From positions 89,387 through 153,386 of the forward strand of contig SEAC01000030.1 of the NCBI GenBank assembly GCA_004173235.1: a DNA stretch of 64,000 nt, given 5' to 3'. The stretch comes from Chitinophagaceae bacterium (GTDB taxonomy: Bacteria; Bacteroidota; Bacteroidia; Chitinophagales; Chitinophagaceae). The notes beneath the pieces are model-generated. The model ran no database searches and was not told the DNA's origin. It saw nothing but the letters and a program-made list of their open reading frames with translations. Within the stretch, counting starts at the first letter, position 1. Every line of letters starts with the position of its first letter. Both the position numbers and the translations under genes were made by a program. Below, one piece after another: positions 15,319-40,211 of this stretch.

Positions 15319-15368
15319 GACGGTTGGGGTTTGAGGAAGAGATGCCAATCCCATGCCAAGGGAGGGGG

Positions 15369-15469
15369 CGCACGGAATCCACGGAATACACGGAAGAAAA
15401 CATCCGCTATTGGTGGGATGACGCTTGGATAGGCGCACGGAATTCACGGAATGCACAGAAGAAAACATC
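15369..15469 (+). repeat. Left repeat pair of GxxExxY cassette 1
   Basis: cgcacggaatccacggaatacacggaagaaaacatc (15369-15404) and cgcacggaattcacggaatgcacagaagaaaacatc (15434-15469), 33/36 identical. Confidence 0.92.
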
Positions 15470-15558
15470 AATTTCTGGTGTTGAAAAAAGCAAGATTTGG
15501 TGAGCGCTTGCACTTCGTCGTTCGCAGCGTGTTAGGTTGCTTTGCAGGAAAGATCTGT

Positions 15559-15969
15559 ATGTTCAGAAACGAAACCAAGGCACAACGCGAGCTGAATGAC
15601 ATTTGTTACGAGGTGCGTGGGGCGCTATTCGAGGTGCATAAACACCTGGGCCCGGGCCTGCTTGAAAGCATCTACGAGGAAGCCAGCGTGATCGAACTGG
15701 TCAGCCGCCATCTGGCAGTGCAGCAGCAACTTCCCATTCAAGTTCATTACAAAGGTCAACTCCTGGGAACCAGGTTTCGCCTTGACCTGTTAGTCGAAGA
15801 TAGCGTACTACTTGAGCTCAAATCTGTAGAAGCATTGCATCCCGTTGACGCGAAAAAGACACTCAATTATCTCCGCTTGACCGATACGCGCATCGGCTTC
15901 CTGGTCAATTTTAATGTAGCCTTCCTTGAAGACCGTAAAAGCATCATCAGACTGCTAAACGGATTCTGA
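15559..15969 (+). CDS. GxxExxY family protein (PD-(D/E)XK nuclease superfamily)
   Basis: GPGLLESIYEEA motif; catalytic-like D...ELK (FRLDLLVEDSVLLELK); TLNYLRLTDTRIGFLVNFNV. Confidence 0.9.
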   Translation: MFRNETKAQRELNDICYEVRGALFEVHKHLGPGLLESIYEEASVIELVSRHLAVQQQLPIQVHYKGQLLGTRFRLDLLVEDSVLLELKSVEALHPVDAKKTLNYLRLTDTRIGFLVNFNVAFLEDRKSIIRLLNGF

Positions 15970-15997
15970 ACCGTTAATGCTAATGCTATCTCTCTCT

Positions 15998-16053
15998 TTC
16001 CGTGCTTTCCGTGTATTCCGTGCGCCCTTCCCTTTCCGTGCATTCCGCGTGCC
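15998..16053 (-). repeat. Right inverted repeats of GxxExxY cassette 1
   Basis: ttccgtgctttccgtgtattccgtgcgcc is the reverse complement of the left repeat core (26/29); a second, shorter copy follows. Confidence 0.88.
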
Positions 16054-37001: not shown

Positions 37002-37020
37002 CAGCGCAAGCGCTGTTGAT

Positions 37021-37134
37021 CACGAAAGACACAAAGGCGCGAAGTAGTAACGAATATTGAAAGGGAAGTTCGCTTCCCTTTTTTCATTTCGGAGGCATTG
37101 CACCTTTGCGTCTTAGCGTCTTTGCGTCTTAGCG
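37021..37134. repeat. Inverted pair of 8-bp-period repeats without a gene (candidate empty cassette)
   Basis: Left cacgaaagacacaaaggcgcgaag (37021-37044); right tttgcgtc|ttagcgtc|tttgcgtc|ttagcg (37105-37134), opposite polarity. Confidence 0.75.
37061..37080 (+). terminator. Intrinsic terminator of atpG
   Basis: aagggaag-ttcg-cttccctt followed by tttt. Confidence 0.85.
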
Positions 37135-37136
37135 TT

Positions 37137-37251: not shown

Positions 37252-38220
37252 ATGGAGATATCTAGCCTTATTCCGCATATCGAGTCGTTGATCTTTGCTT
37301 CCGACAAGCCGCTTACGCCGGCCGAGCTCACCGAGCTGATCAACCAGGCCTTCGGGTTCATGGAAGACAAGGTGCTGGAAGAACAGGTGGATGCCGCGCT
37401 TGAAGGCATCGTGGAGAAATACAACTCCGAGTTTTATCCGTTCGAAGTGCGCCAGAGCGGCGGAGGCTGGCAGTTTCTTACCAAGAAAGAATTCCATAAA
37501 ACCGTAGCGCAGCTCAATGGCGAGAAGTTCCTCAAACGCCTGTCGGCAGCGGCGCTCGAAACACTGGCCATCATCGCCTATAAGCAGCCCATTACGAAGG
37601 GCGAGATCGAATCCATCCGCGGCGTTTCGTCCGATTACAGCGTGCAGAAGCTGCTGGAAAAGGAACTGATCATCATCTCCGGCCGCAACGAAAAACTTCC
37701 CGGCCACCCGCTGATCTACGCCACTTCGAAAAGCTTCATGGATTATTTCGGCATCAACTCGGCCGACGACCTGCCGAAGATCCGCGAAGTGCTTGCCGAC
37801 CAGATGGTGCAGGGCACGCTCGTCAACCCCGAAGACTTCCAGACCTCGGGCCTGCTGGTGACCGACGACGGCGAACTCGTGGAAGAGCAGGATGAGACCG
37901 GTGCCACTCCAGACTCCGCTCCGGTGCAGAACGTCGTCAATGGCGAAGCGCAGGAGGAGCCTTCCGAAGAAGCTTCCGTTGAAGCGACGCCCGATGACCT
38001 GCAGGCCGATCTTTCTGATGAGAACGGCGACGAGGAAGAACTTTCCGAGACGGACTTCCCCGAGGAAGAACAGCAGGAAATCCGCATTGAAGAAACCAGC
38101 GACGAAGTGGAATTCACCCCTGACGAGCTCGACGAGAGCGCCGGCGACAGCGCCCGCGGCGAGGATGGGGATACGGATGACGACGCACCCTCTGATAGCG
38201 TGAAGCCGGATCAAGCATAG
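37252..38220 (+). CDS. scpB: SMC-Scp complex subunit ScpB with long acidic C-terminal tail
   Basis: LSAAALETLAIIAYKQPITKGEIESIRGVSSDYSVQKLLEKELI; acidic D/E/S-rich tail. Confidence 0.93.
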   Translation: MEISSLIPHIESLIFASDKPLTPAELTELINQAFGFMEDKVLEEQVDAALEGIVEKYNSEFYPFEVRQSGGGWQFLTKKEFHKTVAQLNGEKFLKRLSAAALETLAIIAYKQPITKGEIESIRGVSSDYSVQKLLEKELIIISGRNEKLPGHPLIYATSKSFMDYFGINSADDLPKIREVLADQMVQGTLVNPEDFQTSGLLVTDDGELVEEQDETGATPDSAPVQNVVNGEAQEEPSEEASVEATPDDLQADLSDENGDEEELSETDFPEEEQQEIRIEETSDEVEFTPDELDESAGDSARGEDGDTDDDAPSDSVKPDQA

Positions 38221-38242: not shown

Positions 38243-38278
38243 AACCGCGAAGAGAAGAAGAAAAGAAGGTTGCGCGGA
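38243..38278 (-). repeat. Left inverted repeat of GxxExxY cassette 2
   Basis: aaccgcgaagagaagaagaaaagaaggttgcgcgga; reverse complement matches the right-side units. Confidence 0.85.
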
Positions 38279-38297
38279 GAAGGGGAAAGGTTACCAT

Positions 38298-38705
38298 TTA
38301 TTTTTCATGGGCATTCTGGAAGTGCCAGTTGTTTACGACCCTGCGCATTCCTTCCTTCATGAGAACGACGTTGAAGTTGAGTAGGAAGCCAAGCCGACGA
38401 TCGAACAACTTCAAATACGTAAGCGTCTGTGCAAGATGAATCGGTGCCAGCGCTTCGGCCGCTTTGATTTCTACCGGCACCAGGTCATTGATGAGGACAT
38501 CCATTGCATAAGTTTTGCCCAGGTCAACGCCCTTGTAATAATAGCGAACCGGAACTTCCAATTGCACCTTGTAGCCACGCAGCTCCATCTCCCGCGCAAA
38601 GGCGAGCTTGTAGGCAGATTCCAGCAGCCCCGGTCCGAGTGCCCTGTGCACGGTAATGGCAGCATCGACAATGTCGGCTGCAATCTTTTCGATGTTCGTC
38701 TCCAT
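38298..38705 (-). CDS. GxxExxY family protein (PD-(D/E)XK nuclease superfamily)
   Basis: GPGLLESAYKLAF; catalytic-like D...EIK (YAMDVLINDLVPVEIK); TLTYLKLFDRRLGFLLNFNV. Likely start METNIEK (38705); ORF open to 38744. Confidence 0.92.
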   Translation of the reverse strand: METNIEKIAADIVDAAITVHRALGPGLLESAYKLAFAREMELRGYKVQLEVPVRYYYKGVDLGKTYAMDVLINDLVPVEIKAAEALAPIHLAQTLTYLKLFDRRLGFLLNFNVVLMKEGMRRVVNNWHFQNAHEK

Positions 38706-38801
38706 TGTTTTTACAAACCTACCTTTCCTTGCACTGGCCGCCATGGGATTATCACCATCCTTAACCTGTTTTTTCCTGACTGAATCCTGTTGATTTCACC
38801 A

Positions 38802-38980
38802 GGTTCTTCGCGTATTCTTGTTTTCTTCTTCTCTTCGCGGTTCCGATCTTCTTTTCCAGGTAATCCTTCGCGTAATCCTTTTTTTCTTCTTCTCTTCGCG
38901 GTGCTTGCCTTCTTTCCCGGGTAATGCTTAGCGTAATACTTTTTTTCTTCTTCTCTTCGCGGTTCCCTTCCCTCTTTCCC
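38802..38980 (+). repeat. Right tandem array of cassette 2 (three units of about 57-61 bp)
   Basis: Each unit contains ...ttttcttcttctcttcgcggt...; starts at about 38802, 38859 and 38920. Confidence 0.9.
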
Positions 38981-38999: not shown

Positions 39000-40211
39000 A
39001 TGTCCCAATCCCTTTCCCGCCAGCAACTTCTTTCCGCTGCCGAGCAGTTCGGCACGCCGCTCTACGTGTACCACGCGGAGAAGATCAAGGAGCAATACGA
39101 AACGCTTTCCGGAGCATTCACGCAGGTGAAAGCACGCTTCTTTTACGCTTGCAAGGCGCTTACCAACATCAACATCCTTCGCTACGTCAACGGGCTCGGG
39201 GCTGGGCTCGATTGCGTATCCATTTACGAAGTGCAGCTGGGACTCAAGGCAGGCTTCACGCCCGACCGCATCCTCTTTACGCCCAACTGTGTTGACTTCG
39301 ACGAGATCGACGCGGGACGCGCCTTGGGCGTCACCATCAACATTGATAACATCTCCATCCTCGAGCAGTTCGGCAACCGATACGGCAGTTCCTATCCCAT
39401 CTGCATCCGCATCAACCCGCACATCATGGGAGGCGGAAACTACAAGATCTCCACGGGCCACATCGATTCGAAATTCGGAATCTCGGTGCACCAGCTGCGC
39501 CATATCGAACGCGTCATCAAATCGACCAACCTCAACGTAAAGGGGCTGCACATGCACACGGGCTCCGACATCAAAGACATCAACGTGTTCCTCGCAGGAC
39601 TGGAAGTGATGTTCGGCATCGCCGATCATTTCCCGCAGCTCGATTTCATCGACCTCGGCTCTGGCTTCAAGGTGCCTTACCACGAAGACGATGTGCGCAC
39701 CGACGTGGTGGCGCTCGGCGAAAAAGTGGCCGAGGCCTTTGCGCAGCACAAGGCGGAGACCGGCCGCGATCTCGAAGTGTGGTTTGAGCCCGGTAAGTTC
39801 CTCGTGAGCGAGGCCGGTTACTTCGTGGTGAAGTGCAACGTGGTGAAGCAAACGACAGCGACGGTATTCGTGGGTGTCAACAGCGGCTTCAACCACCTCA
39901 TTCGCCCGATGATGTACGAGGCCTATCACCGCATCGGCAACCTAAGCAACCCCGATGGCGCTTCCCGTATTTATACGGTTGTGGGCAACATCTGCGAAAC
40001 CGACACGTTCGCCTGGGACCGCACGCTGCCCGAGGTGCGCGAGGGCGACCTGCTGGTATTTTATAATGCCGGCGCCTATGGCTTCGAGATGGCTTCCAAC
40101 TTCAATTCGCGCCTCAAGCCTGCCGAAGTGCTGGTCGAGAACGGCGAGGCGCGCCTCATCCGCCGCCGCGATGTGTTCGAAGACCTTTTGCGCAACCAGG
40201 TGGAGGGATGA
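39000..40211 (+). CDS. lysA: Diaminopimelate decarboxylase
   Basis: FYACKALTNINILRYVNGLGAGLDCVSIYEVQLGLKAGF; GGGNYKISTGHIDSKFGI; GAYGFEMASNFNSRLKPAEVLV. Confidence 0.95.
   Translation: MSQSLSRQQLLSAAEQFGTPLYVYHAEKIKEQYETLSGAFTQVKARFFYACKALTNINILRYVNGLGAGLDCVSIYEVQLGLKAGFTPDRILFTPNCVDFDEIDAGRALGVTINIDNISILEQFGNRYGSSYPICIRINPHIMGGGNYKISTGHIDSKFGISVHQLRHIERVIKSTNLNVKGLHMHTGSDIKDINVFLAGLEVMFGIADHFPQLDFIDLGSGFKVPYHEDDVRTDVVALGEKVAEAFAQHKAETGRDLEVWFEPGKFLVSEAGYFVVKCNVVKQTTATVFVGVNSGFNHLIRPMMYEAYHRIGNLSNPDGASRIYTVVGNICETDTFAWDRTLPEVREGDLLVFYNAGAYGFEMASNFNSRLKPAEVLVENGEARLIRRRDVFEDLLRNQVEG

Follow-up and report, generated by a model that had tools for sequence, protein, structure and literature searches.

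GxxExxY nuclease genes with lineage-matched flanking repeats in Bacteroidota as candidates for a REP/RAYT-like selfish DNA family

We found that a GxxExxY nuclease gene of Flaviaesturariibacter lies between inverted repeat arms that also occur, mostly without the gene, as short intergenic elements. The nuclease and its repeats diverge together, gene-less copies are found in the matching genomes, orthologous cassettes occupy different loci, and the sites are polymorphic among sister species. We propose, with a probability of roughly 0.6, that the cassette represents the gene-bearing form within a dispersed intergenic family with inverted, non-identical ends, which would be spread by its PD-(D/E)XK nuclease acting on the arms. 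The best reading of the data is a two-part selfish system resembling REP/RAYT, in which a PD-(D/E)XK nuclease would stand where REP/RAYT has the Y1 transposase; both cleavage by the nuclease and mobility of the elements are predictions from sequence comparison.

The window, by which we mean the whole stretch of 64,000 nucleotides that was analysed, comes from contig 12 of a 3.76-Mb assembly (G000) of Flaviaesturariibacter (Bacteroidota), a genus that we take to belong to the Chitinophagaceae. The focal cassette lies in the gap, its presumed insertion site, between lysA (diaminopimelate decarboxylase) and a gene that we take to be scpB, which is conserved beside lysA in the congeners searched (Table 1). 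The conserved arm is 38 nt long and begins with ACCGCGAAGAGAAGAAGAAAA. TRF resolved the 5′ array of three arms as 2.7 copies with a period of 61 bp (38806-38966), and the inverted-repeat score of the flanks of the focal gene was 28. Dinucleotide shuffling, repeated 1000 times, gave no score above 16.8, and 28 was likewise not reached by any of the 1399 mismatched flank pairs. Among the 51 window genes with flanks, only the focal gene and that of a second cassette in the window (cassette 1) exceeded the threshold of 17.4. The three tandem units of about 60 bp on the 5′ side and the single inverted copy on the 3′ side, which an earlier sequence-only reading of the window had described, were thus recovered. 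Just upstream of scpB, at 37020-37135, a gene-less inverted pair of the CRCNRAG type, CACAAAGGCGCGAAG ... CTTTGCGTCTTAGCGTCTTTGCGTCTTAGCGT, surrounds a terminator-like hairpin, and this pair is similar to the repeats of the nuclease at locus L005.

Table 1. Window positions of the focal cassette, its host neighbours and cassette 1
Feature	Position	Strand	Remark
Host gene on one side, presumed scpB	37252..38220	+	name taken from established knowledge
3′ repeat arm, inverted, single	38244..38281	+	ACCGCGAAGAGAAGAAGAAAAGAAGGTTGCGCGGAGAA
Focal GxxExxY nuclease gene	38298..38705	-	Pfam and NCBIfam profiles
5′ repeat arm 1, end-1 type	38804..38841	-	ACCGCGAAGAGAAGAAGAAAACAAGAATACGCGAAGAA
5′ repeat arm 2, end-1 type	38865..38902	-	
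5′ repeat arm 3, end-1 type	38926..38963	-	
Host gene on other side, lysA (diaminopimelate decarboxylase)	39000..40211	+	
Cassette 1, 5′ repeats, two units	15367..15480	+	CACGGAATACACGGAA class
Cassette 1, GxxExxY gene	15559..15969	+	other clade
Cassette 1, 3′ inverted repeats	15993..16050	-	

The focal protein matched PF13366 (PDDEXK_3) in Pfam (1.3e-34, 119.4 bits against a curated cut-off of 22) and TIGR04256 in NCBIfam (2.8e-34, 118 bits against a curated cut-off of 35). It carries the D...EIK motif (MDVLINDLVPVEIK) noted earlier, while its length, given earlier as 136 aa, is corrected to 135 aa, with a METN... start at 38705 and the stop at 38298, or to 148 aa from a second possible start, an in-frame ATG upstream at 38744. 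By its D...(D/E)xK motif the protein is assigned to the PD-(D/E)XK nuclease superfamily, and it would be a putative DNA-cleaving enzyme. The catalytic D and ExK are invariant across the proteins of the focal cassette, its copy in the sister species G011 and cassette 1. Comparison of G000 with G011 showed purifying selection on the nuclease (dN 0.084, with dS saturated), and the copy in another sister species, G013, is frameshifted. The AlphaFold model of the protein, with a pLDDT of 40, was too poor for reading the fold, and a PDB sequence search with the protein returned no relative. A defence-system reading was not adopted, as PADLOC gave just a weak Cas4 match (E = 0.018).

Five GxxExxY genes are present in G000, with different flanking repeats at each. 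The earlier statement that the two window cassettes carry unrelated repeats stands in so far as they fall into separate classes, the repeat of cassette 1 belonging to the CACGGAA class and the focal one to a broad CRCNRAG class; yet the focal scheme is widespread, being common to many other GxxExxY cassettes. Two details that the sequence-only reading had offered as common to both cassettes were dropped as evidence. The 10-mer GAAGAAAACA is found in one of the three focal units, three homologous cassettes (L057, L106 and L107) lack it, and in about 6% of shuffles it is common to both cassettes by chance. The similar repeat-to-gene gaps (89 versus 96 bp) mean little, because across 72 loci with strong inverted repeats such gaps range from 18 to 207 nt (5-95%). 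At these 72 loci the 3′ arm mostly lies right next to the stop codon (at a median distance of 11 nt, and at most 13 nt in 38 of them), and the distance of the 5′ arm varies widely.

Outside the cassettes, the focal repeat forms a family of its own. At up to three mismatches it occurs 27 times in G000, as compared with once for the reversed pattern. A degenerate arm pattern was found 34, 25 and 52 times in G000, G011 and G013, respectively, all of Flaviaesturariibacter, and not once in 16 other congeners; reversed controls gave none. A nuclease more than 80% identical to the focal one is encoded by exactly the same three genomes, a genus-level co-occurrence that counts as about one evolutionary event because they are sister species. 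A scan of GTDB contigs placed the nearest relatives by protein in Flaviaesturariibacter flavus and F. aridisoli and returned no further species.

The gene-less copies are intergenic, 85-154 bp long (median 117), with their arms in inverted pairs, and 19 of the 33 enclose a GC-rich hairpin. Two types of end could be told apart, end 1 (ACCGCnAAG-AGAAnAAG-AAAAGAAG-nTGGTACGCTAAG) and end 2 (ACCGCnAAG-AAAAGAAG-wGAATAAG-CGTTTCGCGAAG), and one of each was present in 28 of 33 gene-less elements under a rule formulated after inspection. The usual order in the family runs from end 1 through the nuclease gene, where present, and the hairpin to end 2; the gene is missing from most copies. In a random-pairing test, which is independent of the end-type rule, the two arms within one element were less alike than random arms (19.1 versus 19.96 ± 0.23 of 25). 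The two end types and this lower likeness therefore point to a DNA element with distinct ends, one left and one right, rather than to a conserved RNA stem.

We then compared the sites among the sister species. The focal cassette and its orthologues occupy three different loci in G000, G011 and G013, and homology beyond the cassettes ends at the arms. At two of these three loci, sister species hold a gene-less family element. The scpB-lysA site carries such an element in G013 and a partial one or remnant in G011, and no such repeat in more distant congeners. At the G011 cassette site, the gene lies between arms that in G000 enclose a 49-bp loop; the flanks are 84% and 76% identical through both arms with only the gene extra, which in this site pair is placed between end 1 and the hairpin. 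The gene may have entered a resident element here, a direction of insertion that we infer from the occupied and gene-less sites. Such entry into a resident element is not general, because the G013 cassette site has no element in G000 and the cassette 1 site has no CACGGAA repeat in G011. Among nine gene-less sites of G000, three carry the element in both sisters too, and at least four are without it in one or both. Target-site duplications were unreadable, since the intergenic flanks of the sister species are too diverged.

Several other differences were seen at repeat-bearing loci. The L031 site has a gene-less element in opposite orientations in G011 (L278) and G013 (L281). Four copies on G011 contigs (L102-L105) were rejected as cases of recent transposition; they have kilobases of flank in common and lie at contig ends, and are therefore probably one region assembled several times. 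These assembly variants are not identical: beside a GxxExxY gene, L102 differs from L103 and L104 by 741 bp that lie between direct repeats of 44 nt (CTCCGTGCCCTCTGCGA...), which looks like recombination between repeat copies. Other dispersed repeats, CCTCACCCCCGGCCCCTCTCC... and CAAACCACAAACCACAAAC, replace or accompany the elements at L003:2425-2472 and, in G011, at the sites L021 and L010, and CAAACCACAAACCACAAAC has many matches in G013.

The association of nuclease and repeat extends far beyond the focal family. GxxExxY genes were found in 69 of 101 genomes searched, in 1-15 copies each, and 141 distinct loci of Bacteroidota were sampled from the genus, family and order. When the 5′ flank was compared with the reverse complement of the 3′ flank, 72 loci scored above the 99th percentile of the controls and 103 above the 95th percentile of mismatched flank controls, the latter level not being reached at 38 of the 141. 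Protein distance was correlated with the similarity of the proximal flanks (Mantel rho -0.28, 0 of 999 permutations, p = 0.001), and the value for distal flanks, 350-600 nt away, was near baseline (-0.04). Among non-syntenic pairs, similar repeats were seen in all nine at a protein distance below 0.3, in 46% at 0.3-0.6, in 19% at 0.6-1 and in less than 1% beyond 2. Class labels given to 82 loci by a rule based on sequence alone changed 5 times on the protein tree, as compared with a mean of 28 (minimum 21) for shuffled labels. Applied to distal flanks, this rule labelled just 4 of 141. Since it was drawn up after the arms had been seen, the Mantel test gives the cleaner result.

When the arms were set beside the maximum-likelihood protein tree, blocks became visible: one with AACGCAGATTTT..GATT and TCTGAACCnnGATT arms together, one of CACAGATGACACGGAT arms, one of CACGGAATACACGGAA arms formed by cassette 1 together with its homologue in G013, and a large part of the CRCNRAG type that contains the focal clade. 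Loci of distant clades within one genome did not have similar repeats, and host composition is therefore no explanation. These results bear out the earlier proposal that each nuclease lineage has a repeat type of its own while the architecture is held in common, and the co-segregation of protein clades and repeat clades, named with that proposal as its check, was positive in the 141 loci.

Arms of other clades were searched for in 400-kb samples from which the cassettes had been excluded. Those of the G016, G017 and G014 nucleases gave 29 matches in 10 own-genome cells (family by genome), as compared with 9 in 20 foreign cells, and those of G000 and G013 gave 3 in 24 cells; several of the other-clade matches are complete gene-less inverted pairs. 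ACCGC arms were present near none of 14 Y1/RAYT genes, none of 10 S23-type genes and none of the four other GxxExxY genes of G000, so that RAYT was ruled out as the mover of these arms. The classical Y1 RAYT genes (L291-L304; 3, 4 and 7 copies in G000, G011 and G013, respectively) have GC-rich palindromes of their own, and two unrelated repeat/enzyme systems therefore coexist. Seven loci of G000 (L093, L095, L096, L097, L098, L100 and L101) hold S23-type four-helix-bundle genes (PF05635) within inverted repeats of 7-8-nt period (TCGTGAATCGTCAATCGTGAAT, ATCTGATGTCTGATGTC, GGTGATGGGGTAATGGGG, AATATTCAATAATCAATATTCAA), possibly a parallel system; these genes were ruled out as carriers of the ACCGC arms, because their repeats differ.

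We propose that the PD-(D/E)XK nuclease may recognise its cassette's own repeats, that is, the arrays of ~8-bp units at the ends of its family, and would cut DNA at those arrays. Repair or re-joining at another family member or at a new site would then follow. In this way either the gene could spread, by homing into an element that lacks it, or mobilisation in trans could spread the small element. Among the findings that count against a nuclease-driven reading is that G013 has the most arms (52) despite its frameshifted nuclease, next to the 38 loci with no flank inverted repeat above the control 95th percentile and the cassette sites at which a sister species has no element.

A broken nuclease beside the highest arm count is what might be expected if the gene were cargo, duplicated with its flanking repeats, and another enzyme or host terminator selection moved or kept the elements. 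Co-segregation would then reflect linkage, which alone predicts that neighbouring DNA diverges with the gene, and the GC-rich hairpins of the gene-less elements make use as host terminators plausible. We consider such a passenger role rather unlikely, given that no other enzyme was found beside the arms at any of the RAYT, S23-type and other GxxExxY loci, that flanks beyond 350 nt are without co-divergence, and that the gene-less copies in a genome correspond to the nuclease clades present there, both in the focal family and in families of three other genomes.

Action at the RNA level, through a transcript stem around the gene as in 23S rRNA intervening sequences, appears very improbable. The gene does sit in the loop of an inverted repeat, and S23-type genes, known from 23S intervening sequences, lie between inverted repeats here as well; but arms of the same element are less complementary than random pairs and come in two end types, so that compensatory change between them is not seen, an Rfam scan of seven loci gave no match, and the sites are intergenic, outside rRNA. 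We give still less weight to the view that ordinary REP- or terminator-like intergenic repeats lie near the gene by coincidence. It would account for gene-less elements that are intergenic and often have a hairpin, but the controls refute it for the gene-repeat association: bracketed genes in the window were GxxExxY genes only, half of the sampled loci (72/141) exceeded the control 99th percentile, and repeat types are clade-specific. The nuclease-driven element remains our preferred reading.

The genomes that carry GxxExxY genes commonly contain intergenic repeats of short period as well, and the two are now tied together, lineage by lineage: the ACCGC arms are a concrete candidate substrate for the nuclease, and the nuclease is a candidate engine for the repeats. 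Our search covered the open-access literature, where two papers name GxxExxY and one names PF13366, and met no publication tying either of them to flanking repeats in the text available there. The lineage-matched repeats across 141 genes suggest a kind of selfish DNA family that had not been described before. More tentatively, and with odds that we would place slightly short of even, GxxExxY genes could be widespread autonomous selfish systems, each PD-(D/E)XK nuclease co-evolving with and spreading its own short, asymmetric-ended intergenic elements. If so, repeats of the CTCTGTGTCTCTGTGGTT, CTTTGCGTCTTTGCG and TCTGAACCNNGATT types, which are common in Bacteroidota, would be gene-less members of GxxExxY systems.

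The focal family resembles MITEs and their autonomous transposons in having one gene-bearing copy and more numerous short copies, with terminal inverted repeats common to both. It differs in that the cassette is without a known transposase or DDE/HUH domain and no target-site duplication was seen, the flanks being too diverged for reading. Homing endonucleases include PD-(D/E)XK enzymes, for example I-Ssp6803I; they likewise combine a small nuclease gene with occupied and unoccupied versions of a site in relatives, seen here at two of the three cassette sites, but here there is no intron or intein, and the putative target is a dispersed repeat family instead of one conserved gene. The 23S rRNA intervening sequences with S23-type proteins (PMC4990558) also have a small ORF between inverted repeats; they lie in rRNA, whereas the focal cassette is intergenic, encodes an unrelated protein and has no stem covariation. 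Compared with REP/REPIN-RAYT systems (REPtrons; PMC3116915, PMC2817692), the likeness is broader: repeats border the enzyme gene, inverted pairs are dispersed in intergenic regions, repeat types are particular to enzyme lineages, and a genome may hold several types. There the enzyme that defines the systems is a Y1 HUH transposase (PF01797) and the repeats are hairpins of 20-40 nt, whereas here a PF13366 protein of the PD-(D/E)XK family is accompanied by arrays of ~8-bp units with two end types. If our reading is true, GxxExxY cassettes would represent a second, independently evolved route to the REP/RAYT lifestyle.
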